Of a stretch of 64,000 bases of DNA, positions 9,387-37,022 are shown piece by piece. A model generated the notes under the pieces. The model saw only the letters and a list, made by a program, of their open reading frames with translations, made no database searches and had not been told where the DNA came from. The translations under genes and the position numbers were made by a program. How positions within the stretch are numbered: position 1 is the first letter of the stretch; every line of letters starts with the position of its first letter. The stretch is from Mixta gaviniae (lineage in GTDB: Bacteria; Pseudomonadota; Gammaproteobacteria; Enterobacterales; Enterobacteriaceae). The stretch covers positions 3,844,001 through 3,908,000 of the forward strand of contig NZ_CP026377.1 of assembly GCF_002953195.1 (NCBI RefSeq). The letters run 5' to 3'.

Positions 9387-9801
9387 TTCAAACCTTGTAG
9401 ATCATTAGCAAAAGATTAAAAATTCACCAACCTGCCTGTTTTCAATGTCTTTCAGGAATAAAAGCCGTGCCGCTTAAAGTCATTCTGGCTGTCATGACAA
9501 GCTTTGTTTTTATTGCTAAAGCTGGTGAATTCAGAGACAGACCTTACCGGACAAGGGGCTTTTTTAACCTGAATAATCCAACCGGTAAGCATCGCGATAG
9601 CAAAATCATACCCTGAGCATTGATGAACACAAGAGGATAATCAATAAGGGAGGTTTAACAAAAGGCACAAAACTGCATATTTGACTTAGTAAGGTCAAAG
9701 ATCTCACCGAGCTGATTTTGTTGGCTAAAGGCATTAACCAAGCACTTTATTTGTGCAAAAATAGGTCCATATTCCTTCACTTTTATCTGACCGGAAATGC
9801 T
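9387..9801. promoter_or_regulatory. Divergent promoter region, helicase gene / hsdR
   Basis: A 415-bp gap between the leftward helicase gene and the rightward type I restriction operon, so it must contain both promoters. One compact inverted repeat, TTTGAC (9680-9685) and GTCAAA (9694-9699) separated by 8 bases, lies about 100 bp before hsdR and could be an operator. No gene is recognised here; the in-frame extension of hsdR from 9718 is unlikely to be translated. Confidence 0.35.
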
Positions 9802-12234: not shown

Positions 12235-12306
12235 TTCCCTATCAATGTCTGTCACCGTAGCGACCGCTCGGTGGCAGACTTTTTTATTACGGAAATTGCA
12301 ACAAAC

Positions 12307-13782: not shown

Positions 13783-15533
13783 TGTCTGCTGAGCAACTAA
13801 TCACCCAACATATCAATACCTGGACATCTGCCTTACAGACACGTTCAACGGCTGGACGCGGCAACAACGGCAAGATTGATCTTTATGGCATTAAAAAGCT
13901 GCGCGAACTGATTCTGGAACTGGCGGTGCGCGGCAAGCTGGTGCCACAGGACCCAAATGATGAACCTGCGTCTGAGTTGCTAAAACGCATTGCCGCTGAA
14001 AAAGCCGAGCTGGTGAAGCAGGGAAAAATTAAAAAGCAGAAGCCTTTGGCAAAAATTAATGAGGATGAAACGCCGTTTGAATTGCCGGAGAGCTGGGAAT
14101 GGACATCGTTAGGTTTTCTGACAAATTATGGTCAATGCGATAAAGCAGAGCCTGAAGATGCTAAAAGCAACACATGGATTGTTGAACTCGAAGATATTGA
14201 AAAAGAAACATCCAGGCTTTTAAATAGAGTTACTTTTGCCGAACGCCCATTCAAAAGCTCAAAAAATAGATTTTCATGTGGGGACGTACTATATGGAAAG
14301 TTACGCCCATATTTAAATAAAGTACTTATTGCTGATGATGATGGCGTTTGCACCACTGAGATAATTCCCGTCAGACCATTCAATGGAATCACTTCAGAAT
14401 ATCTGAGCATATTACTAAAGTCCCCTAGCTTTATTAGATACGCTAACGAATCAACACATGGCATGAATATGCCAAGGTTAGGTACTGATAAAGCAATAAA
14501 TGCGTTAACACCTCTAGCTCCTGTCAATGAGCAAATAAATATCGTTCAAAAAGTAAAAGACCTCATGTCCCTTTGCGACCAACTGGAGCAGCAATCTCTG
14601 ACCAGTCTGGAAGCACATTCCCAGCTGGTTGAAACGTTGCTGGCAACACTTACCAATAGCCAAAATGCCGAAGAGTTAGCCGAAAACTGGGCGCGAATCA
14701 GCCAGCATTTCGACACGCTGTTTACCACCGAAGCTAGCATTGATGCGCTTAAACAAACCATTCTGCAACTGGCGGTGATGGGTAGATTGGTGCCGCAAGA
14801 CCCCAACGACGAACCCGCATCCGAATTGCTAAAGCGTATTGAGCAGGAAAAAGCGCAACTGGTGAAAGAAGGTAAAATTAAAAAACAGAAACCTTTGCCG
14901 CCAGTGAGTGATGAGGAAAAGCCTTTTGGGTTGCCGGAGGGGTGGGAGTTTATTAGGCTGGGTGACCTAACCAGCAAGATGGGCTCGGGTAGTACTCCTC
15001 GAGGAGGGCAAAGTGCATATGTAACTGAAGGCATTCCATTTCTTCGCTCTCAAAACGTGTGGAATGAGGGCCTCCGTTTAGACGATATAGTGTATATTGA
15101 TAAAAATATACATTCTAAAATGGATGGAACGAAAGTTTTTCCTGGTGATATTCTTCTAAATATCACCGGGGCTTCATTAGGCCGCACTTTAATATTTCCT
15201 GATCACATCATAGAGGCAAACGTTAGCCAGCATGTCACAATCATTCGATTGTTATTGGGCGAGCTTGCACCATTTGTTCACTTAGCCATTAAATCTCCCC
15301 TTATTCAAAACCTGATATGGAGAAGACAAGTCGGCATGGCAATTGAAGGACTTAGTAAAAAAACATTGGAATTATTTGAATTCCCAGTACCACCGTTATT
15401 AGAGCAACATCGAATTGTTACTAAAATTGATGAACTATTCATTATCTGCGAAAAACTTAAATCCCACCTGCGATCTGCCCAGCAAACCCAGCTACATTTG
15501 GCGAATGCACTCACAGACGCAGCGCTAAGCTAA
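13782..15533 (+). CDS. hsdS: Type I restriction specificity subunit with two target-recognition domains
   Basis: A 583-residue DNA-recognition subunit; each half of the bipartite target is read by one target-recognition domain (TRD). Seen: TRD1 at about residues 100-260, TRD2 at about 385-550, and two copies of a conserved block (LVPQDPNDEPASELLKRI...) at residues about 47-89 and 330-372. The length matches type IB S subunits (EcoAI about 589). The TRDs are visibly more AT-rich than the conserved blocks, as expected for exchanged recognition modules. ATG overlaps the hsdM stop. The recognition sequence cannot be deduced from the protein alone. Confidence 0.92.
   Translation: MSAEQLITQHINTWTSALQTRSTAGRGNNGKIDLYGIKKLRELILELAVRGKLVPQDPNDEPASELLKRIAAEKAELVKQGKIKKQKPLAKINEDETPFELPESWEWTSLGFLTNYGQCDKAEPEDAKSNTWIVELEDIEKETSRLLNRVTFAERPFKSSKNRFSCGDVLYGKLRPYLNKVLIADDDGVCTTEIIPVRPFNGITSEYLSILLKSPSFIRYANESTHGMNMPRLGTDKAINALTPLAPVNEQINIVQKVKDLMSLCDQLEQQSLTSLEAHSQLVETLLATLTNSQNAEELAENWARISQHFDTLFTTEASIDALKQTILQLAVMGRLVPQDPNDEPASELLKRIEQEKAQLVKEGKIKKQKPLPPVSDEEKPFGLPEGWEFIRLGDLTSKMGSGSTPRGGQSAYVTEGIPFLRSQNVWNEGLRLDDIVYIDKNIHSKMDGTKVFPGDILLNITGASLGRTLIFPDHIIEANVSQHVTIIRLLLGELAPFVHLAIKSPLIQNLIWRRQVGMAIEGLSKKTLELFEFPVPPLLEQHRIVTKIDELFIICEKLKSHLRSAQQTQLHLANALTDAALS
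13920..14049 (+). repeat. hsdS conserved block, copy 1 (130 bp)
   Basis: First of two direct repeats inside hsdS, encoding the conserved spacer block that precedes TRD1. The partner is at 14769-14898. The two encoded peptides are nearly identical through LVPQDPNDEPASELLKRI, and the DNA copies differ mostly at third codon positions. They could recombine to delete or swap a TRD. Confidence 0.8.
14769..14898 (+). repeat. hsdS conserved block, copy 2 (130 bp)
   Basis: Second copy of the hsdS direct repeat, preceding TRD2. It is the same length as the first copy and in the same orientation and frame, as is typical of S subunits that arose by duplication. Confidence 0.8.
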
Positions 15534-15543
15534 GGAACAGACG

Positions 15544-16647
15544 ATGCCGGTTCATCATGCTATCTGGCGGGTGGGGGATAACCCACAGCCGCTGACCATC
15601 AGCAAGCTGGCCAGTGAAAGTTTGCTGGAAAGAATGATCTTAAACGACCCAACCATTCTTTCAGACCAGTGGATGATTATCGGTCATCAGGAAAATACGC
15701 TCGATAAGGGGCGTATTGATCTGCTGGCGATAGCGCCTGATGCCTCGCTAATCCTGATAGAGCTGAAACGCGACCGCACACCGCGCGAGGTAGTCGCTCA
15801 GGCGCTGGATTACGCTTCATGGGTAGATGATTTAACCGCAGACCGCCTGTCACAAATTTATGAAAAATTCTCTGGCGGCAGTAATCTGGGTGACGCCTTT
15901 AAGCAACGTTTCAATACTGAGTTAGAAGAAGAGTCTATTAACCAGTCGCATCAAATCATTATCGTAGCGGCGGAACTGGATCCGTCCACCGAACGCATTG
16001 TCGACTATTTAAGTAAAAATGGTATCTCTATTAACGTGCTGTTCTTCAAAGTCTTTCAGCACGGAGATGAACAGTTTTTAAGTCGCGCCTGGCTTCTCGA
16101 TCCCAGCGAGACGCAAACTAATGCTGCTCAGGCCACCGCAAGTACGAGTGCTCAATCAAAAGAACCCTGGAATGGAGAGTTCTATGTCTCGTTCGGTGAC
16201 TCAAATAGTCGTAACTGGGAAGAGGCGCGACATTACGGGTTTATCAGTGCCGGTGGCGGAAGCTGGTACAGCCAGACCTTAAAACAGCTTCAGCCCAGTC
16301 AACGCGTCTGGGTTAACATCCCAAAAACAGGTTATGTAGGCGTCGGTATTGTGCAAAGTGCCGTTGAGCCAGCCAGCAGCTTTACAGTTAATACTGAGGC
16401 TGGTGAAAAACTCGCGATGGACGTGCTTAAGCATGGAGACCTTTATCGTGATAACTCAGGTGATCCCGATAAATCTGAGTATTTCGTCTCAGTAAAATGG
16501 CTTGAAACCCGTAGTGAACAGGATGCAGTAAATGAACTCGGATTCTTCGGTAATCAAAATACCGTTTGTAAACCGACAACGCCAAAGTGGCGACACACTG
16601 TTGAAAGATTGAAAAATCACTTCATAAACTGGGATACTAACGAGTAG
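15544..16647 (+). CDS. DUF91/NucS-like nuclease-domain protein appended to the RM operon
   Basis: A 367-residue protein, starting 10 bases after the hsdS stop with a good Shine-Dalgarno (AAGGA), so it is probably co-transcribed with hsdRMS. Seen: an N-terminal domain with GRIDLLAI followed by LIELKRD near residue 73 and a helix with QALDYASWV. This is the D...ExK pattern of DUF91/NucS-type PD-(D/E)XK nucleases. After a linker near 185-205 comes a C-terminal beta-rich domain (RVWVNIPKTGYVGVGIV near 260) that resembles EVE/PUA-like folds, which elsewhere bind modified bases. The EVE comparison is only by eye. A nuclease with a modified-base reader would make sense beside a methylating system, but this is inference. 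Confidence 0.65.
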   Translation: MPVHHAIWRVGDNPQPLTISKLASESLLERMILNDPTILSDQWMIIGHQENTLDKGRIDLLAIAPDASLILIELKRDRTPREVVAQALDYASWVDDLTADRLSQIYEKFSGGSNLGDAFKQRFNTELEEESINQSHQIIIVAAELDPSTERIVDYLSKNGISINVLFFKVFQHGDEQFLSRAWLLDPSETQTNAAQATASTSAQSKEPWNGEFYVSFGDSNSRNWEEARHYGFISAGGGSWYSQTLKQLQPSQRVWVNIPKTGYVGVGIVQSAVEPASSFTVNTEAGEKLAMDVLKHGDLYRDNSGDPDKSEYFVSVKWLETRSEQDAVNELGFFGNQNTVCKPTTPKWRHTVERLKNHFINWDTNE

Positions 16648-16778
16648 AATTTTCCGGCATTCAGGCGAATGGATTTTAATAAGGATCTTAACAATGCGTA
16701 AAATCCTCCACTCCGAATACCCGTTCCGGCGGTCACACGAAGGTGTGGCTGCCCCGACGGTATATTCGGGGATTACCC

Positions 16779-17009
16779 ATGCATACAAGAAATCGAGCGT
16801 TTCGTCGCCATCATATGAAAAGGCTCAAAACTAAACGCGGCCGCTATAATAATGCGGCTTACAGCTGGCCTGAAGGCGCGACTATCGTCAATATCGGTAA
16901 GGCTTATCATACGCCATGCCTCTGTTCATGCTGGATGTGTGGACATCAGCGTTTTCATCACGGCATGAACATGCAGGAAATGAGAGCAAGAGCCAGGTAT
17001 CAGGATTAA
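16779..17009 (+). CDS. Small Cys-rich protein with CSCxMCG motif
   Basis: A 76-residue basic protein. Start ATG 16779 is chosen over GTG 16743 because the family usually begins with a short Arg/Lys-rich segment. Seen: RR...KRLKTKRGRY, then TPCLCSCWMCG near residues 47-57, a likely metal site. I recognise the pattern as a conserved small protein of unknown function found in diverse proteobacteria, often near defence or mobile genes. No function is assigned. A hairpin with CCCCGA/TCGGGG arms lies just upstream at about 16753-16772. Confidence 0.6.
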   Translation: MHTRNRAFRRHHMKRLKTKRGRYNNAAYSWPEGATIVNIGKAYHTPCLCSCWMCGHQRFHHGMNMQEMRARARYQD

Positions 17010-17125
17010 GCAGCTTAGCCCACCTCAATGGTGGGCTACCTTCCAGCAAACACCCTCTGATAAACCAACTTGTAAGCTCACCTACCACCCCCTACAAACC
17101 CGATAAGCACAATGAGGACCTCACA

Positions 17126-17284
17126 ATGCAAAGTCGAGCCACCAGCGCCAAAATCACCAAACAACAAATTTGCCGCTCCGTTGCTAGCTCAACGGCTATT
17201 GAAACGGGTGAAGCTGTGCGGAAAATTGAGCAAAATCATAAGCAGTATCAAGCTAAAGCAAAAGCTATCGGCTTAGCTCGCTAA
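17126..17284 (+). CDS. Small hypothetical protein (52 aa)
   Basis: A short open frame starting at ATG 17126 with an AGGAC Shine-Dalgarno-like sequence about 8 bases before. The product is basic and alanine-rich, with an amphipathic helical C-terminal half (EAVRKIEQNHKQYQAKAKA). It lies in the same direction as the RM operon. I do not recognise the family. The start codon and coding status are moderate guesses; the frame can be extended upstream to 16916, but that stretch overlaps the CSCxMCG gene and is unlikely to be translated. Confidence 0.4.
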   Translation: MQSRATSAKITKQQICRSVASSTAIETGEAVRKIEQNHKQYQAKAKAIGLAR

Positions 17285-17523
17285 TTCGGCAAAATATCGT
17301 CAACAAGCTGTATCATCGGCATATAGCTGTCAGTGATTTCGGCCTGAATAGCCTTTTAAACGCTTTATGCTCGCCAAAAAGACTGTAACCCAGCATCTGC
17401 CTGAACTGACAACACATCAAAATCTGCTTCATCGATAATGCCCGGTCTATTCAACAATACACTATCCTATGAACCAGGCTGGTAAATGCTCTTCAAAGAA
17501 TTGAGACTATCTTTGGCCAATTC

Positions 17524-18828
17524 TCATCCTCTCTGGAATAAGTTCACTACGTTGCTGGTGGCCTGCTCAACATGATTAACCCTCTTTTCCCACTGTTCTA
17601 ATGCCCTTCTTTTCTCTACAAGATAATCATAACGGTCATAGTGCTTCGAGCTGACATCCTGCAATGCATGGTTTTGAATGCGGTCACGCAGCTCTTTCGA
17701 AACACCGATTTCGCCCATCAGCGTTTTGCAGGTCCGCCGTAAATCCCTTGCAACAAACACCGGATTGTCAGGAAAGTGCTCACGATAATAGATGATTGCC
17801 TGCGCAAAACTGTCGGTCCGCAGATGTTTAGCCGCATCCAGCCGTTGCGGAAAGATAAACGGACTATTGTTAACGTTTTCCACCTTCAGCCTTTCCAGAA
17901 TTTCGACCGCTGAATCCGTTAACGGAACCAGATGGTCACGCTTGTTCTTTGATACATCAGCGACGATCAACAGCGTTTTTTCTTCCCAGTTCACTGCATC
18001 CCAACGACTGGAAGCCAGTTCATGTGGGCGCTGGCCACCAGCGTAAACACATAAATTAAGCAGCAAACTTACCGTGCTGCCGACGCTTGGCGTTTTGGGG
18101 AAGTCCCCCATTAACTGTTGCAGTTCATTCAACTTGAGCCAGTTGGTTCCCGCTTTCTCTGCAGCAGACTGTTTAGGGATGACGCTCACCGGGTTCATCT
18201 CAAGCCCAAACATCACATTCTGCTGGTGGTTGGCCGGATCGTTGTCCGCTTTGAGCCCATAGTTGAAAGCTGCCATCAGATAAGAACGCACACGGTTTGC
18301 TTCAACGCTCGCACCGCGCTGAATGATAGCGGACAGAATCTGTTTGATATGTAGCGGTGTGACTTCGTTAGCTTTGGTATCTTTGGCGATAACGGAATAC
18401 GTTTCTTTCTCCAGACGGTAGAGCACCTGCTGCCATGTCCGCTTTCCATCTTCCCGCATTTTGTTGGTGTAACCCTGAATAAGCTGCTCGATGCTGCCCT
18501 TTAACTGTTCGGCACGTTTTTGCTTTTCCAGCGCGATTTCCTGTTCAGCCTTTTCGACCTTAGGGTTCTTCCCTTCCTTCAGCGTACCGGCATAACCTTT
18601 CGCAAGCTGACGAGCCTGAGCTAACGACATTTCAGGGTAACGACCCAACTGAATAAAGTGGCGCTTAGCATTCCAGTAGTAGCGATAGTAGAAAACTCGC
18701 TGCCCGGATGGCTCAACTTTAACGCCCAGACGCCCTGCTCCGCGCTCACCACTCTTGTCCCAAACCTGATAAGCCGAGTCGCGAGCTTTAAGACCGCGCA
18801 CCATTGAGTCCGTTAGATTGTCTGCCAA
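17524..18828 (-). CDS. int: P4-type tyrosine integrase of element A
   Basis: A site-specific recombinase of the P4 family, about 434 residues from a TTG start at 18828. I prefer this TTG because a strong Shine-Dalgarno (AAGGA) sits just before it and the protein then begins LADNLTDSMVRGLKARDSAY, the usual DUF4102 arm-binding start; the ATG at 18921 adds 31 unrelated residues. Seen: N-terminal arm-binding domain, core-binding domain, and a catalytic domain with RPHELASSRW, RDLRRTCKTLMGEIG and a C-terminal catalytic tyrosine within SSKHYDRYDY. The start lies about 185 bp from the tRNA repeat at 19014, the usual spacing for an island integrase next to its attachment site. Confidence 0.88.
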   Translation of the reverse strand: MADNLTDSMVRGLKARDSAYQVWDKSGERGAGRLGVKVEPSGQRVFYYRYYWNAKRHFIQLGRYPEMSLAQARQLAKGYAGTLKEGKNPKVEKAEQEIALEKQKRAEQLKGSIEQLIQGYTNKMREDGKRTWQQVLYRLEKETYSVIAKDTKANEVTPLHIKQILSAIIQRGASVEANRVRSYLMAAFNYGLKADNDPANHQQNVMFGLEMNPVSVIPKQSAAEKAGTNWLKLNELQQLMGDFPKTPSVGSTVSLLLNLCVYAGGQRPHELASSRWDAVNWEEKTLLIVADVSKNKRDHLVPLTDSAVEILERLKVENVNNSPFIFPQRLDAAKHLRTDSFAQAIIYYREHFPDNPVFVARDLRRTCKTLMGEIGVSKELRDRIQNHALQDVSSKHYDRYDYLVEKRRALEQWEKRVNHVEQATSNVVNLFQRG

Positions 18829-19013
18829 GAGAGAGTCCTTACGAGAATTATATTGCTGTTTTCTGGGTGATGTAGCAGGTGACGTAAGGATGATACTGAA
18901 AGGAAGATCCCGGAACAACATGAAACGAAGAAATCAACATAACGTTCTGTTTTATAGCATTTAATAAGCGAACATGGTTTAAGATGAAAAACGATGGAAC
19001 AAGCTATTCATAT

Positions 19014-21579: not shown

Positions 21580-22500
21580 ATGACTCATGGCCGACATCAA
21601 GGTCCACACATTTTTCGATTGTCTTCATCAGTCGGAGCCTGTGGAACCAATAATCCTGACGAAGTTAAGGCCATCCAGCATCTGGTAAAAAATGCAGGGT
21701 ATGGACTGACTACAGGAAGATCACTTGCAGTAAATGGACACTGTGATACTGCTACTATTGAGGCGATACGCTGGTATCAGCGGCTTTTAAATATGTCGCC
21801 TAACGGCCTGATTCAGCCTACAGATACATGGTTCATGCAGGCTCTTGATAAGGCTACCTCTCCCCATTTTCGCCCCAAACACAGCGGCGGTCCGTTGGCC
21901 GTCCGGCGGGGGCAACTGACTTTCGATGCAGAAGGCGTTGACTACATTACCGCCGTGGCGCCATTCCGGCAGCGTCGTTACCCTAATTTCTCACGCATAC
22001 TGCAATGGCCGCCTACAAACTCGTCGGGGGTAACATTAGGACGTGGGTATGACATGGGAAACCGCAGTGCAGGAGAAATTTTCAATACGCTAAGGCAGGC
22101 CGGCATTGAAGAATACAAGGCTGTAATATGTTCAAAAGCGGCACATATCAAAGGCCATCAGGCAGGACAATTTGTAAAAGTCTATGGCCCTCTGGTTGGC
22201 GAGATCACTCATCAACAGCAAATTCGGCTTTTTGAGCTTGCTTACCAGGTAAAGGTTAACGAGGCCAGGAATCTTTATAAACGGGTATCACACCGTCTCC
22301 CTGATGCGCCTGAATGGGAACAGCTGGATCAAAAAATACAGGATGTAATAATCGATATTTTCTACCAAGGTGTACACAATGCCAGAGCACTTTTCCAGGC
22401 TGCCATCGATGGCAGGGCTGCTTTGATCACCCATATAAAAAACTCATCCATTTACATGTCATTTGAAAACCACAGACACAGGATCAGGTATCTGCAGTGA
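21580..22500 (+). CDS. Peptidoglycan-binding, pesticin/T4-lysozyme-like muramidase (candidate effector)
   Basis: A 306-residue protein predicted to cleave peptidoglycan. Seen: an N-terminal peptidoglycan-binding-type repeat at about residues 20-95 (AIQHLVKNAGYGL, VNGHCDTATIEAIRWYQRLL), then a lysozyme-like domain with FDAEGVD (candidate catalytic Glu) near 110 and SGVTLGRGYDMGNRS near 147-160, the pattern of pesticin-like muramidases found in bacterial effectors. There is no signal peptide, so export would need a lysis or secretion route. The stop overlaps the next gene as GTGA, strong coupling to a periplasmic lysozyme inhibitor. The likely unit is an effector and its immunity protein; an endolysin role is less likely because the prophage lysis genes lie elsewhere. 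Confidence 0.72.
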   Translation: MTHGRHQGPHIFRLSSSVGACGTNNPDEVKAIQHLVKNAGYGLTTGRSLAVNGHCDTATIEAIRWYQRLLNMSPNGLIQPTDTWFMQALDKATSPHFRPKHSGGPLAVRRGQLTFDAEGVDYITAVAPFRQRRYPNFSRILQWPPTNSSGVTLGRGYDMGNRSAGEIFNTLRQAGIEEYKAVICSKAAHIKGHQAGQFVKVYGPLVGEITHQQQIRLFELAYQVKVNEARNLYKRVSHRLPDAPEWEQLDQKIQDVIIDIFYQGVHNARALFQAAIDGRAALITHIKNSSIYMSFENHRHRIRYLQ

Positions 22501-22946
22501 AAAAAATCTTCATTATTCTGGGGGCGCTGACTGCCTCTATGGCAGCACATGCGGAGCTTACCACGGGTGTGGAACGAGACCTCTGTTTCAAAAAAAATGA
22601 GGACATTCCGTCAGCTTATAATTGCCTGACTGTCAAAAAAGAAAGCAGTAACAAGGAAATGGATACGCTCATTGCTGAAACTGTTAAGCGCATAAAGGCT
22701 AATAACGTTGGCCCTTTCAATGGAAAAGAAGACAATCCTGAAACCGCCGGGGATGTTTACAGCCAGCGGTTTATTGAGGCGCAAAAATTCTGGAAAAACT
22801 ATCGCGATAAGCTGTGTTTGTCGGTAGCGACCGAACTGGACGAGGACGCTGATGACTACCAGTCATACATAGACCAGTGCCAGATCAACCTTAATAAAAA
22901 TCACGCCGGTGAAATAGCACAGATGGGATTGCCGCCAGCTGACTAG
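22497..22946 (+). CDS. Periplasmic LprI/DUF1311-like lysozyme inhibitor (candidate immunity)
   Basis: A 149-residue protein from a GTG start overlapping the muramidase stop by 4 bases. Seen: signal peptide MKKIFIILGALTASMAAHA, then a four-cysteine mature domain (ERDLCFKK, SAYNCLTVKKES, RDKLCLSV, YIDQCQINL) like the lysozyme-inhibitor LprI N-terminal domain. Location in the periplasm would protect the cell wall from the paired muramidase. The operon context makes an immunity role likely, but this is inference. A hairpin terminator follows. Confidence 0.72.
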   Translation: MKKIFIILGALTASMAAHAELTTGVERDLCFKKNEDIPSAYNCLTVKKESSNKEMDTLIAETVKRIKANNVGPFNGKEDNPETAGDVYSQRFIEAQKFWKNYRDKLCLSVATELDEDADDYQSYIDQCQINLNKNHAGEIAQMGLPPAD

Positions 22947-24164: not shown

Positions 24165-25202
24165 ATGAGCAAACGAAAAAGCCGCGCCCGCACGCAGCCG
24201 GTCAGTCAGCCGGAAAACATGACCGGCGCACCGGCGGCGGAAGCGTTCACCTTTGGCGACCCGGTGCCGGTTCTCGATCGCCGTGAACTGCTGGACTATG
24301 TGGAATGCGTGGTGATGGACCGCTGGTATGAGCCGCCGGTAAGTTTTGACGGGCTGGCGCGCACGTTCCGCTCCGCCGTTCATCACAGCTCTCCGATCAG
24401 CGTAAAGTGTAACATTCTGGCGAGCACCTTTATCCCGCACCCGCTGCTGAGTCAGCAGGCTTTTACCCGCTTTGCGATGGATTATCTTGTCTTTGCCAAT
24501 GCCTATCTGGAGAAGCGAACCAGCCGCCTCGGGAACACGATCAAGCTGGAGCCATCGCTTGCGAAGTTTACGCGTCGCGGACTCGACCTTGATACATACT
24601 GGTATGCGCATTACGGCATCAACGCCGATCCGTATGAGTTTGCGAAGGGCAGCGTCTTTCACCTGATGGAGCCGGACATTAATCAGGAAATTTACGGCGT
24701 GCCGGGGTATCTGTCGGCCATCCCGTCCGCGCTGCTGAATGAGTCGGCCACGCTGTTTCGCCGCAAGTATTACATTAACGGCAGTCACGCGGGCTTTATC
24801 ATGTACATGACCGACCCGGCACAGAGCCAGCAGGACGTGGATAACATCCGCAGCGCCATGAAAAGCGCTAAGGGACCTGGCAATTTTCGTAACCTGTTTA
24901 TGTACAGCCCGAACGGGAAAAAGGACGGCATCCAGATCATCCCGCTGTCAGAGGTAGCGGCGAAGGATAAGTTTCTGAACATCAAAAACGTGAGCCGCGA
25001 CGATATGCTGGCTGTTCACCGCGTGCCGCCGCAGCTGATGGGAATAATCCCGAACAACACCGGCGGGTTTGGTGACATAGAGAAAGCCAGCCGCGTGTTC
25101 GTGCGTAACGAGTTGATACCCCTGCAAGAGCGATTTAAAGAGCTGAATAGCTGGCTTAATGAAGAAGTAATAAGTTTCAATCCCTATATTTTAGATATGT
25201 AA
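24165..25202 (+). CDS. Q: P2 gpQ portal protein
   Basis: A 345-residue portal protein of P2-like phages (P2 gpQ is 344), through which DNA enters the capsid. Seen: AAEAFTFGDPVPVLDRRELL near the N-terminus, PPVSFDGLAR, LLNESATLFRRKYYINGSHA, and the C-terminal VHRVPPQLMGIIPNNTGGFG. It is full length and apparently intact, although capsid and terminase genes are gone. Its end abuts a bidirectional terminator and then the ATPase cargo gene. Confidence 0.93.
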   Translation: MSKRKSRARTQPVSQPENMTGAPAAEAFTFGDPVPVLDRRELLDYVECVVMDRWYEPPVSFDGLARTFRSAVHHSSPISVKCNILASTFIPHPLLSQQAFTRFAMDYLVFANAYLEKRTSRLGNTIKLEPSLAKFTRRGLDLDTYWYAHYGINADPYEFAKGSVFHLMEPDINQEIYGVPGYLSAIPSALLNESATLFRRKYYINGSHAGFIMYMTDPAQSQQDVDNIRSAMKSAKGPGNFRNLFMYSPNGKKDGIQIIPLSEVAAKDKFLNIKNVSRDDMLAVHRVPPQLMGIIPNNTGGFGDIEKASRVFVRNELIPLQERFKELNSWLNEEVISFNPYILDM

Positions 25203-25206
25203 ATAA

Positions 25207-25229
25207 AAGGCACCCTTGCGGGTGCCTTT
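25207..25229. terminator. Bidirectional terminator between Q and the ATPase gene
   Basis: Arms GGCACCC (25209-25215) and GGGTGCC (25220-25226) flanked by A and T stretches, placed between the convergent Q and ATPase genes. Confidence 0.8.
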
Positions 25230-25231
25230 AC

Positions 25232-26497
25232 TTATGGTAAATCTAAGTCATCTTTCAATTCAGCTATATCTTGATGTTGAAGCCATATCAAAAAACCTTT
25301 ATCAACTACATTCAGCTTTCTATTTGTCTGATCATAATCAAGTATGATTGGCATTATATTTTTTTTAATCTGTAAGGATGCAGTAGATTGCAATGACTGA
25401 GTTACATTACCGAGGTTAAGCTTTTCGCCTCTTGGATGAACAGACTGTAAAGTTGCTCTAATATCCTTGAACTTAAGGCCTAGTTCAAGCTCACTAATTG
25501 TTGAGGAAAGTACAGGGTAAAGAATCCACTTATGCATCTGCAATTCTGTATCCTGAAAACCATCCGAAAAGTTTATTAAAAAAGAGTTGTAACGTGCTGA
25601 TTGGTCACCGACGATTTTTGCAATGATCTCTTTACCGTCTAAACCATTGCCAATAGTCGTCTTGATTTGTTGTGTTCCTGAAATACCACACTCGATACAT
25701 GCACGCCTACATGCCTCCTGAACCAAATAAATACTGTTGAGGCAGTGAAGAACAATGTCAGCTTTAAACTTTGCATCAAAATCGATGTTAAGGAGTTCAC
25801 CGCCTTTTTGAATTGCCATCTCCAACTCAGCCGTTTCCCACTTGTCAGCGTTAACAGATATGATTCGGCCAGTTAAATCACCGTTATAAACAATTAATCT
25901 ATTATCCTCTAACCACACGCCAACAACAATAAAAATTATATTTGAACTCTCGTGGAAAGCTTTTAAAGCTATAGAGAAATCACGTTGAGTCTCGAAAGGC
26001 ATATAGTGAAAGTCTTCGAGCACTATAATTTTTTTAAAGTTAATTGATTTTAGAGCCGCAATCACATCATTGACATCATCCACATCAATTTCTAAAGGTG
26101 CTTTAACTTGTTCGTGAGAATTTGTATCTTCTATTTCCCCACCGGCACTTGCACCGAATCCGAAAATACTTGTTTTAATGGTTGCAAGAATCTTATTTTT
26201 ACCTGTGATTCCTTTTTTAGTTGATTGCGTAATTTCGAACCCTGCTCTTTTTAAGATGCTAGCATTCAACTCTGACACATCTGAGCGGTTTGAGCACTGG
26301 ACTAAAATATAATCCTCAGAATTTATGCAGTGTTTCCTTACGCAAGTTTTCCCTTGTTTAGAGCTGCCGTATATAACAATATGCTTTTTAGCCAATAATT
26401 CCTGTTTTAATTTATTGTCTACGTCAGGCCTTTCAATGTAATTAAGTGGCAAATCCCTTGATAAACCAAAAATTTCATTTGTCTCAAAATTCTGCAT
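25232..26497 (-). CDS. Stand-alone P-loop ATPase in the P2 accessory hotspot (candidate defence gene)
   Basis: A 421-residue protein, AT-rich compared with the flanking phage genes. Seen: Walker A YGSSKQGKT near residues 44-52, Walker B KKIIVLEDFHYM near 154-165, and an AAA/STAND-like helical continuation (TAELEMAIQKGGELL, YLVQEACRRACIECG). The C-terminal about 100 residues resemble a winged-helix or small helical domain. There is no signal peptide or membrane segment. It occupies the interval between the portal gene and the replication gene, the well-known P2-prophage hotspot for anti-phage genes such as old and tin. Function is not known; defence is inferred from position. It has its own terminator at the 3' end and should have a promoter in the cos-proximal gap. 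Confidence 0.6.
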   Translation of the reverse strand: MQNFETNEIFGLSRDLPLNYIERPDVDNKLKQELLAKKHIVIYGSSKQGKTCVRKHCINSEDYILVQCSNRSDVSELNASILKRAGFEITQSTKKGITGKNKILATIKTSIFGFGASAGGEIEDTNSHEQVKAPLEIDVDDVNDVIAALKSINFKKIIVLEDFHYMPFETQRDFSIALKAFHESSNIIFIVVGVWLEDNRLIVYNGDLTGRIISVNADKWETAELEMAIQKGGELLNIDFDAKFKADIVLHCLNSIYLVQEACRRACIECGISGTQQIKTTIGNGLDGKEIIAKIVGDQSARYNSFLINFSDGFQDTELQMHKWILYPVLSSTISELELGLKFKDIRATLQSVHPRGEKLNLGNVTQSLQSTASLQIKKNIMPIILDYDQTNRKLNVVDKGFLIWLQHQDIAELKDDLDLP

Positions 26498-26681: not shown

Positions 26682-26775
26682 CGACGCTGGCGATCCTCTG
26701 CGGATCATGCGAATTAATGCGAATTCATGCGGCATAGTCATGCACGTCAGGCTATCACCGCTGTACTACCAGTTA

Positions 26776-26964
26776 TCACTCTGAAATCTGCATTGAACGG
26801 TTGTACTCTTGATTACGCAGGCGCGCCATCAGTTCGTCTGTTAGTTCTGATACCCATTCTATTGCCAGACGTTTTTCCTAATCGCTACAGTCACTGACAG
26901 AAACAAGTTTTAAAAAGAAATCAATACGCTGGAGTTTTACTGACTCCAAAAGATAGTCCTGCAT
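26776..26964 (-). pseudogene. LexA-controlled small early gene, interrupted by an amber codon
   Basis: From ATG 26964 the frame reads 28 residues (MQDYLLESVKLQRIDFFLKL...), meets TAG, then continues for 33 residues (EKRLAIEWVSELTDELMARL...) to TGA at 26776. It fits one 62-residue protein with a single base change. A very strong Shine-Dalgarno (AAGGAGG) precedes the ATG, and a perfect LexA box lies 23 bp upstream. In phage 186 the SOS-induced tum operon occupies this position; whether this is a tum equivalent is unknown. Confidence 0.6.
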
Positions 26965-27063: not shown

Positions 27064-29066
27064 TCAGCTGCCGATACGCTTCTCCTGTAACCTGCCGTTC
27101 TGATAGAAAAGCTTCATTTTTGCCCCACTATCGAGGTTGGTGCCCCTTAAAAGCAGCGCTATTTCCTCATCACTGCCATCGAACCCCCGGCTTTTTAACT
27201 CCAGCTCTAATCGTCGGCGCTGCGGCCCCGTACAGTTATTGACAGAACTCCAAGGGGCGGCAGAGCCGCCAGAAAAACCTGCCTCCGCTGACGCCTCGGC
27301 CTTGGCGACCTTTTCCCATTAAACCAGACGCGTGGAGATTTCAGAGCCATAGACTTGCGGCGAATAGATGCCCTGGATGCGTTGCACGTCTTCCGCATAC
27401 TCGTTGCCCTGCTCATTGATTTCGTAGCAAAGCCGGATAACCAGATCTTCCCGGGAAACCAGCGGCCCGCCCTGCGCCTGTGTATAGGACGCCCAGCAAC
27501 CCACGTCAGCGGCAGCCAGCACGGCGTCCATCTTCGGATCAGGCAGCTGCTTATCACGCAACCGGCGCAGCTCACGCCATACCGTAACCGGAGCGCCACC
27601 AATCTGTTGAAACTGACGAATGGACCAGCGGGACGCCCAAGCGGAAACGGCCTTCGACATATCGCGCAGGCTTTCTCCCGTTTCGTCGTCCTTTTCGCCG
27701 TCCAGGGCGTAGCCGTCGATGTTTTTGGAAATATACTTGGCGATGTAGCCAGTAGCGCTGCCCTTTGCCGGGTCAATGCTTTCGGCATGGAAACGCGCCC
27801 GGCGCGCCTCCGGCGTTTTCAGCTCCGCGCTTTCTTCCTGATAAACGTAATCACGCATAATCTGCTGCACTCGCTCCCGGTGTTCCGGCAGCATAAACAG
27901 CAGCATATGCCAGTGCGGCGTTCCATCGTGATGCGGCTCCACTACGCGAAAGCCAAAAACGTGAATGTCTTCACGTGAGAGCGCGGCCCGAATTTTTGAC
28001 CAAACCTTACAGAGATAGCGCTGTGTGTCTTTGGGGCTGGCACCGTTCCACTGCGACACAAAGCCACCTTTGCTGTATACGGCGTGATATTTTGACGGCG
28101 CTGTAAGTGTGTAGAACTCACCAACGCATCCGGTTTCATTGGCAATGTCCTCAAAGCCGCGCATACGCACCATCAGCTCGCACCGGCGAACGGCCGGATT
28201 TGCGTTGCTGCGGTTAACCATATCTTCCAGGGCAATGCGATCGCCTTCGTCGTTGATAAGGTCGAAGCGTTTGAAAAACTCCCGGTTGCGTTTCTTCTGC
28301 TCCACCCATTCGCCCAGGGTGCCACGAGACACATACGGCGAAGCGGTTTTTTGAACCTGACCGACGGCGATAGCCATATGCTCACGCTGCAGATCGCGCA
28401 TTTTTTCAGGCGTCCGCGCCACCACTCCGGGGCCATCATTCGCAGCAGGCCGGACTGCGCCTTACGCAGCGGCAGCGTGCCCCGGCCAGCCTGATATTCA
28501 GCCCGATAGGGCGGCGTGGTGCCGGTAAGCGCGGCCAACTCAGAAAGGTATCGGTAGGCAACCAGTGTGATCGCTTCTTCGTCGGCATCATCCGGCAGGG
28601 TCACGGCGGTTGTGAAATCAGCCAGGCTTTGCGCCATGAAGGTGCCAACCTTATAGGCAAGATCACGGACGTCCTGGCGGTCCAGCGTGGGCAGGCGGTC
28701 CAGCTGTTTGATAAACGGCAGCTCGCTTGCGGCCGTTTCGGGCAAGCTGTAGCGGCTGCGGACAAGCTGCAGGCGTGGCAATACGTTCTGACCAATTGTC
28801 TGGCTTAAAAACGTATTAGCACGGCGACGGCCCTGTTTTTCGTCTGCCAGTAATCTGGCATAGCGCTCACCAAAATAGCCGGCAAGGAAATCCGGCAAAT
28901 CGTGCAGATACTGGCTGCGCCAGTTGTGATCCGTGGCGTCCTGGTGCCATAGCTTCAGCTCTGTCAGGGTGATGTCCTTCGGCGCGCCCGGCGAAAAGTA
29001 CTCACGCCGCATCTGATTAACGGCGTGATAGCTCCCCTGAACAGCTTCCATGACGGCTTCAGTCAT
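27064..29066 (-). pseudogene. A: P2 gpA replication initiator, broken by a frameshift and an ochre stop
   Basis: Rolling-circle replication endonuclease of P2-like phages. It starts at ATG 29066 (MTEAVMEAVQGSYHAVNQMR), overlapping the previous gene by 8 bases. The first frame is lost after PEWWRGRLKK at an A6 run (T6 on the + strand, 28401-28406); one more A restores KKMRDLQREHM. The second frame holds the HUH motif (TPHWHMLLF) and the two-tyrosine motif YIAKY, then stops at TAA 27319-27321 (TRLV*). The same frame continues ([20 protein letters not shown], ending ...LQEKRIGS) to 27064. The full protein would be about 667 residues. The frameshift may be a homopolymer error; the ochre is a base change. 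Confidence 0.85.
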
Positions 29067-29373
29067 GTGCGACCTGCAGCTCAGACAGTGCCATTTCGGC
29101 CAGTTCCGCCAGCCTGCGGGCTTCAGCCACATAGCTGCTGGCCGTTTCCATTCCTTTACGCAGCACCTGATGCCCAATCGCATCGGATACCAGGTCACGC
29201 ACCAGCAGCACCGGGTTGTTGTAAAGAGCCATAACCTCCGAAATCTGCGTGCGTACGCCTTCCTCTTCCCGCCAGCTGAATTTCTCCAGGGCAATAAGCC
29301 GGGGCTTACCCGGCTGCTTATGTTGCTTTACGGAAATGGTGTAACGGCCATCAATAACCGGGTTTGTGGTCAT
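29059..29373 (-). CDS. P2-like early-region protein (DUF5405-type)
   Basis: A 104-residue protein from ATG 29373 (MTTNPVIDGRYTISVKQHKQ), the start being set by overlap with the preceding TraR-like gene. The helical C-terminal part (RRLAELAEMALSELQ) overlaps the gpA start. It occupies the position of a small orf upstream of A in P2/186-like phages; the DUF5405 label is from memory and is less certain than the phage origin. Function unknown. Confidence 0.65.
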   Translation of the reverse strand: MTTNPVIDGRYTISVKQHKQPGKPRLIALEKFSWREEEGVRTQISEVMALYNNPVLLVRDLVSDAIGHQVLRKGMETASSYVAEARRLAELAEMALSELQVAHD

Positions 29374-31885: not shown

Positions 31886-32908
31886 ATGGCGATCAGCAAG
31901 TTACCCAATGGAAAGTGGCAAGCGCAGGTTTTTCCGAACGGCCGCGACGGCAAAAGGATACGCCGTCAGTTTGCTACGAAGGGCGAAGCACAATCCTTTG
32001 AGAAGTTCGTAAAAGAGCAGGCTCAGGATAAGCCCTGGCTGGGAGAGAAAACTGATAAGCGCCGGGTAATTGAGCTGGTTGAATTGTGGTTCAACACGCA
32101 TGGCATCACTCTGGCGGATGGAGAGAAGCGGCGAACCACAATGGCGTTCGCCTGCGAAGCGATGGGAAACCCACTCGCAACCGAGTTTAACGCGACAATT
32201 TTTGCCTCTTATCGCGAGCTGCGGTTAAGCAGAAAGATCACCCGTTCCAGTCGAGTAAAGGCGGTAACGCCGCGCACGGTAAATTTAGAACTGGCCTATT
32301 TCAGGGCAATGTTTAATGAGCTGCGCCGATTGGATGAATGGACTATGCCCAATCCGTTAGAGAATGTGCGCGAGTTTAAAATCAGTGAGTCAGAGATGGC
32401 GTATCTCACCATTGATGAAATTAGAACCCTCCTCGCAGAATGTGAAAATAGCCGATCCAAGGACCTAATAACCATTGTAAAAATCTGTCTGGCAACTGGC
32501 GCACGATGGAGCGAGGCCGAAGGCTTAAAGGGAAATCAAATCCGCGCCGGTCAGATCATCTACGTGAAAACTAAAGGTAAGAAAAACCGAGCGGTGCCGA
32601 TAACTGAAAAATTACAGGCTGAACTGCCATCCAGCAGGAAAGCGCAGTTGCTCTTTAAACCATGCTATTCAGCCTTTAGAAAGGCCATGCAACGCGCTGG
32701 TATTGAAACACCTGCAGGGCAACTAACGCATGTTTTACGCCATACATTTGCTTCTCATTTCATGATGAATGGCGGTAACATTCTAGTGCTACAAAGAATA
32801 TTGGGGCGTACCGATATTAAGGTAACGATGCGTTATGCGCACTTTGGGCCGGATCATTTTTCAGAAGCAAAGTTGTTCAACCCGCTGAGTCAAATAGCGA
32901 TATGTTGA
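31886..32908 (+). CDS. int: P2-family tyrosine integrase of element B
   Basis: A 340-residue integrase starting 10 bases after the cI stop. Seen: N-terminal arm-binding domain (MAISKLPNGKWQAQVFPNGR), core-binding region, and the catalytic domain with LATGARWSEAEGL, THVLRHTFASHFMMNGGN (HxLRHTxAS) and the tyrosine in TMRYAHFGPDHF. It is full length. It lies 2.1 kb from the right attachment repeat, the gap being filled by the DUF262-HEPN cargo pair. Confidence 0.92.
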   Translation: MAISKLPNGKWQAQVFPNGRDGKRIRRQFATKGEAQSFEKFVKEQAQDKPWLGEKTDKRRVIELVELWFNTHGITLADGEKRRTTMAFACEAMGNPLATEFNATIFASYRELRLSRKITRSSRVKAVTPRTVNLELAYFRAMFNELRRLDEWTMPNPLENVREFKISESEMAYLTIDEIRTLLAECENSRSKDLITIVKICLATGARWSEAEGLKGNQIRAGQIIYVKTKGKKNRAVPITEKLQAELPSSRKAQLLFKPCYSAFRKAMQRAGIETPAGQLTHVLRHTFASHFMMNGGNILVLQRILGRTDIKVTMRYAHFGPDHFSEAKLFNPLSQIAIC

Positions 32909-33105: not shown

Positions 33106-34164
33106 ATGAAAAATTTTGATACTCGCGCTTACAACATTTCAGATTTTTTGGAGTGGAGCCAGACAGGCCTACTGGAACTCTCGCCAAAGTTTCAAAGAAG
33201 ATCGGTTTGGACGGAGAAAGCTAAGTCTTATCTAGTCGATACTATATTAAGAGGAAAGCCAATACCTAAAATTCTTATAACTCAAACGTTGAATGTTGGG
33301 AGAAATGTTAGAACAGTTGTTGATGGCCAACAAAGACTTAGAGCCATACTGAGCTATATTAATGGAGACTTCAAAGTTTCTCGAGCTCACAACAGAGAGT
33401 TTTCTTCGTTCTACTTTGATGATTTACCTGATGAAATAAAATCAGAATTTTTAAAGTATGAAATCGGCGTAGATATGCTTTTCGACTTATCGTTCGAAGA
33501 TATCTTAGATATATTTGCAAGGCTTAATACTTATTCTGTTAAATTAAACCCACAAGAACTACTTAATGCTCAATACTTGGGTTATTTTAAACAAGCTGCG
33601 TATAGTTTAGGGTTTAGATATGTTGCTTATTTTATCGAAGGAGGGGTTCTTTCCGAGAAAGAGGTAACAAGGATGTCAGAAGCTGAACTTTCCTCTGACC
33701 TACTAGGCTCATTGATTGATGGCATTCAGCCCAAAAAGCACATCCCTACTCTTTATAAAAAGTATGACGATGATGAAGATAACTGTAATGATGCAGCAGC
33801 GAAATTCGATAATGTAATGACGATAATAGGAGAGATATATCCGTCTGAAGAACTGAAGCAAACCAATTTCCACAGAATCCATTTTTTCTATACATTATTT
33901 ACATCAATTGCACATTGTCTTTATGGTTTGGAAAATTTTAATGATGCGCCTAGAACTAACATTGATAATAATAATATCGGCCAAATAAGAAATTCACTAG
34001 ATGAAATTAGTGCAAGATATGATGAGGTTACGGCTAGAGATGCTCTAGCTCCAAATGATGAATATCGAGATTTCATTGATGCCTCACGCAGAGCGACCAC
34101 AGACCTCTCATCTCGAAAATTGAGGACTGAATTTATCTGTAAAAAAATTCGGGATGCTATGTAA
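33106..34164 (+). CDS. DUF262 (ParB-like NTPase/nuclease) protein
   Basis: A 352-residue protein with the DUF262 signature: SPKFQRRSVWTEKAKSYLVD near residue 27, KPIPKIL, and the catalytic-type VVDGQQRLRAIL near 73-85. DUF262 is the ParB-like nucleotide-hydrolysing domain found in GmrS and BrxU. The DUF1524 nuclease half of those enzymes is absent. The gene is very AT-rich compared with the phage genes. It is followed by a HEPN gene starting one base after its stop, so the two form a bicistronic unit. A sensor/switch role for a partner RNase is inference. Confidence 0.78.
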   Translation: MKNFDTRAYNISDFLEWSQTGLLELSPKFQRRSVWTEKAKSYLVDTILRGKPIPKILITQTLNVGRNVRTVVDGQQRLRAILSYINGDFKVSRAHNREFSSFYFDDLPDEIKSEFLKYEIGVDMLFDLSFEDILDIFARLNTYSVKLNPQELLNAQYLGYFKQAAYSLGFRYVAYFIEGGVLSEKEVTRMSEAELSSDLLGSLIDGIQPKKHIPTLYKKYDDDEDNCNDAAAKFDNVMTIIGEIYPSEELKQTNFHRIHFFYTLFTSIAHCLYGLENFNDAPRTNIDNNNIGQIRNSLDEISARYDEVTARDALAPNDEYRDFIDASRRATTDLSSRKLRTEFICKKIRDAM

Positions 34165-34165
34165 A

Positions 34166-34780
34166 ATGCCTGTAATCGATGATCTCAATGAATTTAAAGC
34201 CTCAATAGCTCAAGCGGCTTCACTGCGAACAAAAGCTAATCAGGCTGCTTCAAACATGACGGGCGATGAAAGGAGCCTATTATATGAAGCGATTTTTTTA
34301 CGTATATATAGAGCTTACGAAAACCTGCTTGAAAATATCTTTATAAAATACCTGTCAGGTGAAAACACGCATAGTGGAACACAAATTACAACATATTTGA
34401 GGCCAAAAGATAAGCTTCATGCTCGCGCAATGATCACATCTTCTCAACCTTATTTAGATTGGACAGCGCCAAGCACTGTAATTAAACGCGCGGAAACTTA
34501 TATTGATGGGGAAAACCCAATAAAAATTGCTATATCATCTTCTATGACACATTTAATTTCCGCTAAAAAAATCCGAAATCATATAGCGCACAATTCATCT
34601 GAAAGTATGGTGGATTTTAATAAAGTTGTAATTGAGTTCCTACACACTATGCCCAGAACGCAGCCTTCCTCTGGAGAATTCTTGTCCAAGATACCCGCTA
34701 AAGGGCCAAGTAGGAATAAAGAAATATTAACTTTTTACATGGAACATTTGGAAAGCACTGCTATAGCATTAGTTGGTTAA
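34166..34780 (+). CDS. HEPN-like protein (predicted RNase) paired with DUF262
   Basis: A 204-residue protein, ATG 34166 immediately after the DUF262 stop (an in-frame ATG at 34154 would overlap it). Seen: long helices and the motif KKIRNHIAHNSSE near residue 140, which satisfies the HEPN RX4-6H RNase pattern (R-NHIA-H). The layout (YEAIFLRIYRAYENLLENIF) is like MAE_28990/MAE_18760 HEPN families. HEPN proteins often act as toxins in abortive defence. The pair is a candidate toxin/antitoxin-like or anti-phage module; this is inference. Confidence 0.7.
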   Translation: MPVIDDLNEFKASIAQAASLRTKANQAASNMTGDERSLLYEAIFLRIYRAYENLLENIFIKYLSGENTHSGTQITTYLRPKDKLHARAMITSSQPYLDWTAPSTVIKRAETYIDGENPIKIAISSSMTHLISAKKIRNHIAHNSSESMVDFNKVVIEFLHTMPRTQPSSGEFLSKIPAKGPSRNKEILTFYMEHLESTAIALVG

Positions 34781-35399: not shown

Positions 35400-36222
35400 T
35401 AGCCCCACCTTCGCGCGCTTCCGGTACTTTCGCCTCCTTCTTTTTTGCCTTCGCTTTGGGGTGTTGCAGGGCGCGCAGGTGTGGTTCTTTTGCCTTGCGC
35501 TTCACTTTCTTCGGCCTTGGCTCTCTGGTTTGCAGCCACTGCGCCGTTACGCCGGTATAAGCGCTCCGGCCAGCGATAGAACTGATGCCGGCCGCCGTCA
35601 CTGCGTATAATCGTGACCTGTGGAATGGGTTTCCCACTGGCGGTGACTGCCTTACCGGCCTGGAGGAAAGCAGTATCCCCGACTTAACCGAACCTCGCCG
35701 CCGTTCCGGTCAGCCAGCCGCGTCAAAAATTTGGCATCGGATTCCTGCGACTAGTCGATATGCGGGATAGCAATCCGGGCGAGTTCGGGCAACAGCGACC
35801 TCCAGCTTGTTACGCTTTGCAACACAGCCTCAACAATCATACCGAGGGTCTTGTCATGCCAGGACTCTTCCCGCCTGGAATTGAGCGAGCCCCGAAAATC
35901 CGCATTGCGGGCGCGAATGTCACCGTATCAGGTGCGCCCCGGAGTTCGACCTCATCCACGGTAAACCAGCCTTTCTCAATAAGCGTCGCCCCTTACCACC
36001 CGAGCCAAAGCGTCAGTACTGCGCCGCGCACCGGCAGCACGACGCGCCCGTCGGCATCGTTGAGTTCAAGGTCGGGCCGGTCAGCCTCAAAGCCCGATTG
36101 TCGGTCATGGTCAGGCTTATCAGGCGATCGCTGATGTTGCCGGTAATATCCTTGCTCTCGGTTTTCAGTATGCAGGCCGGGGTGAGCGTGTTCCCCGGCG
36201 ATCTGTAAAGGGCATCAGTCAT
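35400..36222 (-). pseudogene. D: P2 gpD late-control/tail protein, heavily decayed (element C)
   Basis: From ATG 36222 the frame begins MTDALYRSPGNTLTPACILK, typical gpD. It shifts at a GGG run (+ strand CCC 36093-36095; one more G restores the family sequence), then shows in-frame TAA and TAG codons and further shifts (for example TVTF..RARNADFRGS). Conserved stretches reappear downstream (AKFLTRLADRNGGEVRLSRD, TAFLQAGKAVTASGKPIPQV, HLRALQHPKAKAKKKEAK), and homology ends near 35400. The start overlaps the gpU stop, as in P2. Confidence 0.78.
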
Positions 36223-37022
36223 CAGAACCCCAGCGACGATGTGACTCTGGTTGCGGCGCCTTTGCCCTTGCCGGCCAGTTGACCGGCCTGTTTATTCAGG
36301 TCGCCGTAAATGGCCGTGAGCGACTCATCAACACGGGTCAGTGCCAGATTAAAGGTAATTTTGCGGGGCGAGCCGTCTGTGAAAAACTCCGCGCCGGTCT
36401 CGCTGATGCTGTTGATAACGTACATTGCGTAAATCATGTCGTTACCCGACAGGAGCGGCCACGCGCATCCCTCCCCGGCCATCAGCCTGACCGCCGTCAG
36501 GGTCAGTTTGCCGCCGGTGATCTCCGGGTAAAGCTCACCGCTGAGGGTGATTTTCTCCTCCCCGGCGCCGGGAAACTGAAAGGCGCCACGCTTACCGATG
36601 CGGCTGTTTGATGGCCAGTGATATTCCGCGTCCCGCTGCATGCTCTGAAACGGCAGCGTCTGACGCCTGATCCTCTTCAAACGTTGGCTTGTAGCTTTCG
36701 GCCATATTGCTGACTGCAACCAGCGTACGGGTATCGTCATAAAGACCCATTTCACGCAGCCAGGAGCCCCCGTTTCCGGCGGGATAATCAGTTCGGCCAT
36801 GATGTAATTCTTGTGTTTGTTGCCCTGGCTGATCCTGTTTAATTTTCCGCGCCAGACCTCATTCATCAGTTTCGTCTGGCTGGCAGAGGGTTCGGGAAGT
36901 TTGCCGCCGCCGTCGCCGACTGCCATCGCGATGATATTGCCTTTTCTACCGCCCGGCGTGAGCGCGGCGGCAAATTTTGCCGTGCCTGCGGTGGTGACCA
37001 TCGTTCTGTATTTCGTTGCCAT
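36222..37022 (-). pseudogene. gpH-gpU chimera: tail-fibre N-terminus joined to tail protein U
   Basis: One open frame of 266 codons that is not a natural protein. Residues 1-about 85 (MATKYRTMVTTAGTAKFAAA, MAVGDGGGKLPEPSASQTKL) are the N-terminus of a P2 gpH-type tail fibre. After ELIIPPETG the frame shifts at a five-G run (+ strand CCCCC 36767-36771); with six G it reads GSWLREMGLYDDT, the usual fibre continuation. From about residue 125 (TLPFQSMQRDAEYHWPSNSR) to the end it is gpU. G, FI, FII, E and T are missing between them. It records a large deletion in element C. Confidence 0.78.

Follow-up and report, generated by a model that had tools for sequence, protein, structure and literature searches.

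A gene for a P-loop ATPase of 421 amino acids (aa) was analysed in a 64,000-nucleotide stretch of Mixta gaviniae DNA (contig NZ_CP026377.1), hereafter termed the window, where it lies between the portal gene Q and the replication gene A (gpA) of a P2-like prophage. The open reading frame (ORF) runs from an ATG start to a TAA stop with its frame intact, both Walker motifs, YGSSKQGKT and KKIIVLEDFHYM, are present, and the GC content of the gene is 0.35–0.40 compared with 0.55–0.60 over most of Q and gpA. These data, together with the matches of the flanking genes to phrog_68 and phrog_91, confirm the preliminary description of the locus, which had recorded a single AT-rich P-loop ATPase with both motifs at this place. 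The coordinates of the features are collected in Table 1.

Comparison with an Escherichia coli homologue over 421 codons revealed a proportion of nonsynonymous differences (pN) of 0.062 and a nonsynonymous distance of 0.064, with a proportion of synonymous differences (pS) of 0.835, synonymous sites being saturated. Because nonsynonymous change is low while synonymous sites are saturated, the ATPase protein has, as judged from this codon comparison, been under strong constraint; together with the number of homologues given below, this speaks against a chance frame. The same kind of comparison gave a nonsynonymous distance of 0.128 and a pS of 0.697 for the portal gene (342 codons), and values of 0.002 (nonsynonymous) and 0.085 (synonymous) were obtained for the ATPase against its near-identical homologue L002. 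Promoter-like sites between positions 24500 and 27000 did not exceed those in shuffled sequence (5 found, 4.9 expected).

The prophage is a decayed remnant. To the left of Q, on the opposite strand, tail-completion and tail-terminator genes were found (phrog_26 and phrog_65); terminase, scaffold, capsid and lysis genes, which intact relatives hold there, were absent from the ORF list of the window, which was read without a profile search. The ATPase frame is whole, and Q, the repressor and the integrase are seemingly so, judged by their length. Between the ATPase gene and gpA, the ORF list contains only a 56-aa frame (26727–26897), a 61-aa frame (27137–27322) and the overhang of a frame overlapping gpA (27207–27788).

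A strong hairpin begins 2 bases beyond the ATPase stop, within a 41-base stretch with a folding energy of −20 kcal/mol (z-score −6.4); a scan for consensus terminators did not include it among its hits. Since it lies between the convergent stops of the ATPase gene and Q, it is a shared terminator, and the earlier statement that the ATPase gene has "its own terminator" holds for the hairpin but not for its ownership. The view of the Q–A interval as an anti-phage hotspot, also part of that description, agrees with the accessible text of two papers (Rousset 2022, PMC9122126; Vassallo 2022, PMC9519451). The ATPase gene occupies precisely this interval, and two related phages carry different genes at the same site, one of the sets including a TIR-domain gene.

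Table 1. Features of the ATPase gene and its prophage surroundings (positions in the window).
Feature	Position	Strand	Evidence
P2-like portal gene Q, one hotspot flank	24165..25202	+	phrog_68, E 4e-169
Hairpin terminator common to the convergent ATPase and Q genes	25206..25229	.	Folding
PDC-S59 family ATPase gene, 421 aa	25232..26497	-	ORF; PADLOC PDC-S59 match; 2363 homologues
C-terminal domain, residues ~299-421	25235..25603	-	Partial conservation; alignment to the TIR family ending at the TIR boundary
R211 (GDLxGR), candidate arginine finger	25865..25867	-	Conservation of 95% or more (68 rows); role inferred
Walker B region, residues 155-166	26000..26035	-	Conservation of 95% or more at E161, D162, F163, H164 and Y165 (68 rows)
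Family-specific insert, residues ~86-140, predicted amphipathic beta-hairpin ~103-120	26078..26242	-	Absent in the TIR family; beta-moment
Walker A, residues 43-51	26345..26371	-	Conservation of 95% or more at residues 44 and 46-51 (68 diverse rows)
P2-like replication gene A, other hotspot flank, in two frames	27319..29294	-	Two ORFs, both matching phrog_91
Prophage integrase, marking the distal end of the P2-like remnant	31886..32908	+	phrog_1, E 5e-69

Family assignment and relationship to TIR-fused ATPases

The window protein matched the PADLOC model PDC-S59 over its full length (expectation value E 1.5e-70, 236 bits, residues 4–410 against profile positions 3–404 of 428) and the model PDC-S01 weakly (E 7.6e-4, residues 26–82). 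By this profile match, it is another member of a catalogued candidate family. As PADLOC already lists the family, neither the label "unknown" nor that of a "new system", both from the preliminary description, was upheld; the proposal of a single-gene defence candidate stands in so far as homologues occur across phyla in defence-rich neighbourhoods, as described below.

Other databases added little. In Pfam, AAA_22 (20.2 bits against a cut-off of 27) and TniB (16 against 22.4) remained below threshold, besides one chance-like match, and the AAA_22 cut-off was exceeded by two of the six relatives scanned (L131 and L091). No match was obtained in NCBIfam. Among the PHROGs, phrog_6841, a family of unknown function, matched with E 3e-9 and a clamp loader weakly with E 0.037. 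Profiles of the STAND group (NACHT, NB-ARC and nSTAND) did not match the window protein at E ≤ 1, and relatives gave only sub-threshold nSTAND matches. A search of the PDB with the window protein returned only two Kelch-like chains (E 0.5–0.56).

A more remote relationship became evident from L132, a protein of 496 residues found as a weak match (E 2.3e-5) in one of five homologue-bearing genomes of a phylum sample and ending in a TIR_2 domain according to Pfam. Using L132 as query, 1499 proteins were retrieved among the 8000 best candidates, with TIR_2 in 120 of the 120 listed. Alignment of the window family (residues 2–421) to the part of the TIR family preceding the TIR domain by hhalign gave 99.8% and E 2.4e-27, and a second build of the same families 99.3% and E 1.6e-20, each E-value referring to one single comparison. 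In a control with seven TniB proteins, hhalign gave 92.5% (E 4.9e-7) for the window family; for the TIR family, the value was slightly higher at 96.5% (E 7.8e-10). Conversely, the PDC-S59 model matched all five TIR proteins tried (E 2.1e-16 to 6.5e-22), with the alignments starting near profile position 131–149. As far as profile comparisons, on which our statements about the fold are based, can tell, the best remote relatives found are TIR-fused ATPases, and neither OLD nor replication ATPases. Of the remote homologies to STAND/AAA or OLD-like folds that had been envisaged initially, an AAA_22-like one was recovered below threshold and those to STAND and OLD were not; a replication ATPase, kinship to which was named at the outset as speaking against the proposal, was not among the best remote relatives.

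In these ATPases with a TIR_2 domain (P0122 and its relatives; 486–659 aa among those listed), the ATPase and the C-terminal domain align end to end with the window family. The window protein ends at residue 421, where the TIR domain would begin, and matched no TIR model in Pfam or PADLOC. Solved structures exist for relatives of the TIR part, among them the NAD(+) hydrolase AbTIR (E 3e-5); TIR domains in other proteins can destroy NAD. The counterpart of R211 in the TIR family, R147, was invariant in 20 of 20 rows. By eye, the shared C-terminal domain is probably winged-helix-like.

The two branches differ reciprocally, in that the TIR family has the C-terminal TIR domain but lacks an insert of about 65 residues between Walker A and Walker B that is present in the window branch. 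Spacing between the two motifs was 50–56 residues in the TIR family (median 52; 119 of 120 parsed) versus a median of 117 in the window family (range 74–127; 66 of 68 rows parsed); in 120 listed core proteins the median was likewise 117, with outliers down to 31. Of 68 diverse rows, 67 have an insert segment of 43–62 residues, and one has a segment of 9. The extra residues are predicted to form an amphipathic beta-hairpin, based on hydrophobic and polar positions alternating in columns 103 to about 121 and on a beta-moment that ranks the stretch 102–111 first of 412, albeit by a small margin (2.28 vs 2.14). Conservation of the insert is among the lowest in the protein (mean 0.41–0.47), with residues 261–300 being equally low (0.41–0.43).

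A sister clade matching AAA_22 (P0242 and relatives) aligned with the window protein over its full length (E 7.6e-63, 29% identity). TIR was found in none of the 120 listed members, the insert is present, with a Walker A–B spacing of 118–123 residues (120 of 120), and Walker B reads ENFHY as opposed to EDFHY in the window family. An insert turn of the I/V/K-P-F/L type occurred in 110 of the 120 listed sister-clade proteins, compared with 0 of the 120 listed core proteins; it was found in a few more distant core rows. In a sampled tree (49 rows, 338 columns), a branch of length 2.76 with a local support of only 0.79 separated all TIR-less rows from the TIR rows, although the check for monophyly was negative owing to one TIR row at the root.

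Distribution and gene neighbourhoods

A total of 2363 homologues was found at E ≤ 1e-3 among 7807 candidates, and the best 120 of these were listed. The genome collection yielded 82 loci, 80 of which were kept, extending from haloarchaea to Actinomycetota, and relatives of 45–57% identity occur in organisms that we take to be members of Actinomycetota, Bacteroidota, Acidobacteriota and Halobacteria. In the phylum sample, a homologue was present in 5 of 200 genomes, the own genome included; in E. coli in 12 of 5426, in 11 cases covering at least 80% of the query; and on plasmids in 9 of 72,556 records, 6 of them with at least 80% coverage. The spread of PDC-S59 relatives across bacteria and haloarchaea is sporadic.

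Close relatives largely share the insertion site. In 14 such loci (L002–L015; 12 viral contigs and two E. coli loci), the portal gene Q directly adjoins the gene in 13 and gpA is also present in 10, some loci stopping short of gpA. In one of them, L011, each of the three genes tested is 100% identical to its counterpart in the window; this locus may be from the same or a near strain. Of three inspected E. coli loci, two belong to P2-like prophages in which the gene lies between gpA/DinI and Q, accompanied by one more gene in the gap; in the third, a distant relative (PDC-S59 E 3e-72) adjoins the integrase of a different prophage. A homologue of 82% identity (L010, 5001–6269) lies outside the Q–A site, flanked by apparent tail genes of another phage. 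Given this different insertion point, the gene behaves as a cassette. On a conjugative Shewanella plasmid (L134, 6001–7302), a distant relative (29.5%) follows parA/parB and precedes another hypothetical gene.

Neighbouring genes were compared in 75 loci, five of 80 having been dropped where a crude ORF caller missed the family member (L063, L082, L086, L090 and L096). Among 918 neighbour ORFs of at least 80 aa, a size below which partners would be missed, there was no recurring partner; the largest cluster spanned 4 loci, and its example reads as an ABC-type ATPase. Since no neighbour family occurs in more than 4 of the 75 loci, the unit looks like a single gene. No codirectional neighbour lay within 60 bases in 47 of the 66 loci with both neighbours. 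A 1047-aa ORF in L079 was considered as an effector fusion and rejected, as its first ~700 residues are arginine- and proline-rich and resemble out-of-frame read-through by eye; otherwise, no very long ORF was seen in the 75 loci.

The neighbourhoods are rich in defence genes. At E ≤ 1e-8, the first neighbours on either side (±1; 142 ORFs) matched 230 PADLOC models and the second ones (±2; 129 ORFs) 208, third neighbours (124 ORFs) being left out of the scan. Only 10 models, with a best E of 1.7e-29, were matched by 142 control ORFs, which come from regions at a distance of 50 kb in 20 of these genomes and were drawn at random from 153 to match the size of the test set. The models matched by neighbours include HmaA/B, MkoC, DrmA/D, a CBASS cyclase, TIR effectors, AriA, RT, BrxHI and type II methyltransferases.

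Several further gene groups were observed in the window itself. A second defence island (1003–18921) contains a LeoBC-type gene (E 7e-153), Hhe (2437 bits), HsdR and HsdM of type I restriction and PDC-S11 (E 1e-164), and by eye an HsdS-like ORF adjoining HsdR/HsdM and an integrase-like ORF (17524–18921). Just past the prophage integrase, two overlapping genes (33106–34780) are a possible two-gene defence cassette, the first matching the PADLOC models NsnA (E 2e-28) and PD-T4-2_A (E 7e-19) in part and being DUF262-like by eye, the second encoding a 208-aa protein that is HEPN-like by eye and gave no PADLOC match. Farther on (36222–37022), outside the P2-like remnant, a tail-fibre/tail-protein remnant (phrog_76, phrog_381) marks a second prophage trace. 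At 21580–22946, a peptidoglycan-binding lysozyme-like protein is followed by a small secreted protein resembling a lysozyme inhibitor by eye; this pair, for which PADLOC gave no match, could be an effector–immunity pair.

Putative function and comparison with known systems

Taken together, we consider it probable, if well short of certain, that the window gene acts as a mobile, single-gene switch against phages, belonging to family PDC-S59 and carried as Q–A cargo by a P2-like prophage that has since decayed. In this putative defence role, the AAA_22-like P-loop ATPase with its winged-helix-like C-terminal domain would sense infection, bind and hydrolyse ATP and oligomerise, probably via the conserved R211. 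The assembled ATPase might then turn on an output, with the insert, a host partner or direct action as conceivable routes.

Several points weigh against this interpretation. No effector domain was recognised in the protein by Pfam, PADLOC, NCBIfam or PHROG scans, as the preliminary description had also stated, and PDB searches with profiles of the whole family and of the insert yielded no solved relative. Among 50,697 phage records, a single weak partial match was found. A literature search under "PDC-S59" and "WP_000402159", supplements aside, found no protection assay for the family, though one may exist under another name. According to the accessible text of PMC9122126, some genes in the Q–A hotspot are not defensive. 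Moreover, the neighbour comparison counts models and not genes; one gene can match many models, and the ratio of 230 to 10 therefore overstates enrichment at the gene level. The models named above come from 25 listed of the 230 and 25 listed of the 208, and of the listed ones mad3, AriA and mREase_IV were also matched in the control, mad3 by 4 of 142 control ORFs versus 2 of 142 neighbours. Judged by Pfam, the ±1 neighbours are mixed and include many housekeeping genes, phage-type integrases accounting for only 3 of 142. The kinds of defence system matched by the neighbours are still telling.

As to the output, the protein may be the sensor half of a split system, with the effector supplied by the host or by an unlinked protein, be it a TIR protein or another. 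This possibility, which we regard as real but doubtful, would fit a core held in common with TIR-fused proteins while the TIR domain is missing and no linked partner recurs; against it, a TIR-fused query found the window gene as its sole match in the genome of the window (free-standing TIR proteins not being covered by that search), and the gene lacks a recurring neighbour in bacterial as well as archaeal genomes. It is unlikely that the gene serves prophage or plasmid fitness without a defence function, in maintenance, lysogeny control or DNA segregation. The plasmid-borne relatives, one of them beside parA/parB, are consistent with such a role, but relatives occur in very diverse hosts including archaea, next to differing known defence genes.

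Somewhat more improbable is that the insert itself constitutes the output, amphipathic hairpins acting jointly, for example on a membrane, after ATP-driven assembly. The size of the segment in nearly all rows, the alternating columns and its absence where TIR is present argue for this, whereas its poor conservation, the lack of a solved relative and the small beta-moment margin argue against it. Inserts of the beta-hairpin kind occur in many AAA+ proteins, where contact with a membrane is not a requirement. A bolder version, to which we would assign a low likelihood, is that PDC-S59 proteins are effector-swapped relatives of TIR-ATPases, in which the beta-hairpin inside the ATPase domain would be pushed out on assembly and damage a membrane or other target. 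If this were true, a single 421-residue protein would combine the roles of sensor and killer in bacteria as well as archaea. The likelihoods expressed for these outputs belong to sub-cases of the one-gene anti-phage reading or lie close to it, and are not meant to sum to one. Least probable is a TniB/TnsC-like or initiator-type AAA+ ATPase serving transposition or replication of mobile elements, which the sub-threshold AAA_22 and TniB scores, the weak clamp-loader match and the hhalign result for TniB would favour, but the TIR family matches far better and over the full length, a transposase or other partner occurs in no more than 4 of 75 loci and the neighbours are rich in defence genes.

PDC-S59 is a widespread, compact and listed candidate, for which no proposed mechanism was found in the literature. 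How such candidates were found is the subject of a 2024 preprint (PMC12988326, accessible text), and the accessible text of the DefensePredictor paper (PMC13092281) reports P-loop NTPase domains in 7 of 31 validated systems. Added here are the relationship to TIR-ATPases and the insert, neither of which was found in print in a few literature searches, with most subscription journals outside their coverage. The link to TIR-ATPases leads to a testable question, namely that of one sensor core with versus without an effector: should a core devoid of TIR confer protection by itself, the effector would have to be the ATPase core or the additional hairpin, and to our knowledge no member of this fold has an effector of that kind.

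Among known systems, PDC-S59 is matched over the full length with no tested difference, its candidate status giving no mechanism. OLD and AriA of PARIS are likewise P-loop ATPases of P2 and P4 defence hotspots; OLD nucleases combine an ABC-type ATPase with a Toprim domain, and kinship to this group was rejected since the window protein matched no such model at E ≤ 1 in Pfam or PADLOC. TniB/TnsC-type AAA+ ATPases have a weak AAA+ similarity to the window family, beside which no transposition partner recurs; with this partner absent and the Pfam score below the cut-off, membership in TniB was likewise rejected. On the best reading, the window ATPase would work like a TIR-ATPase without the TIR domain.
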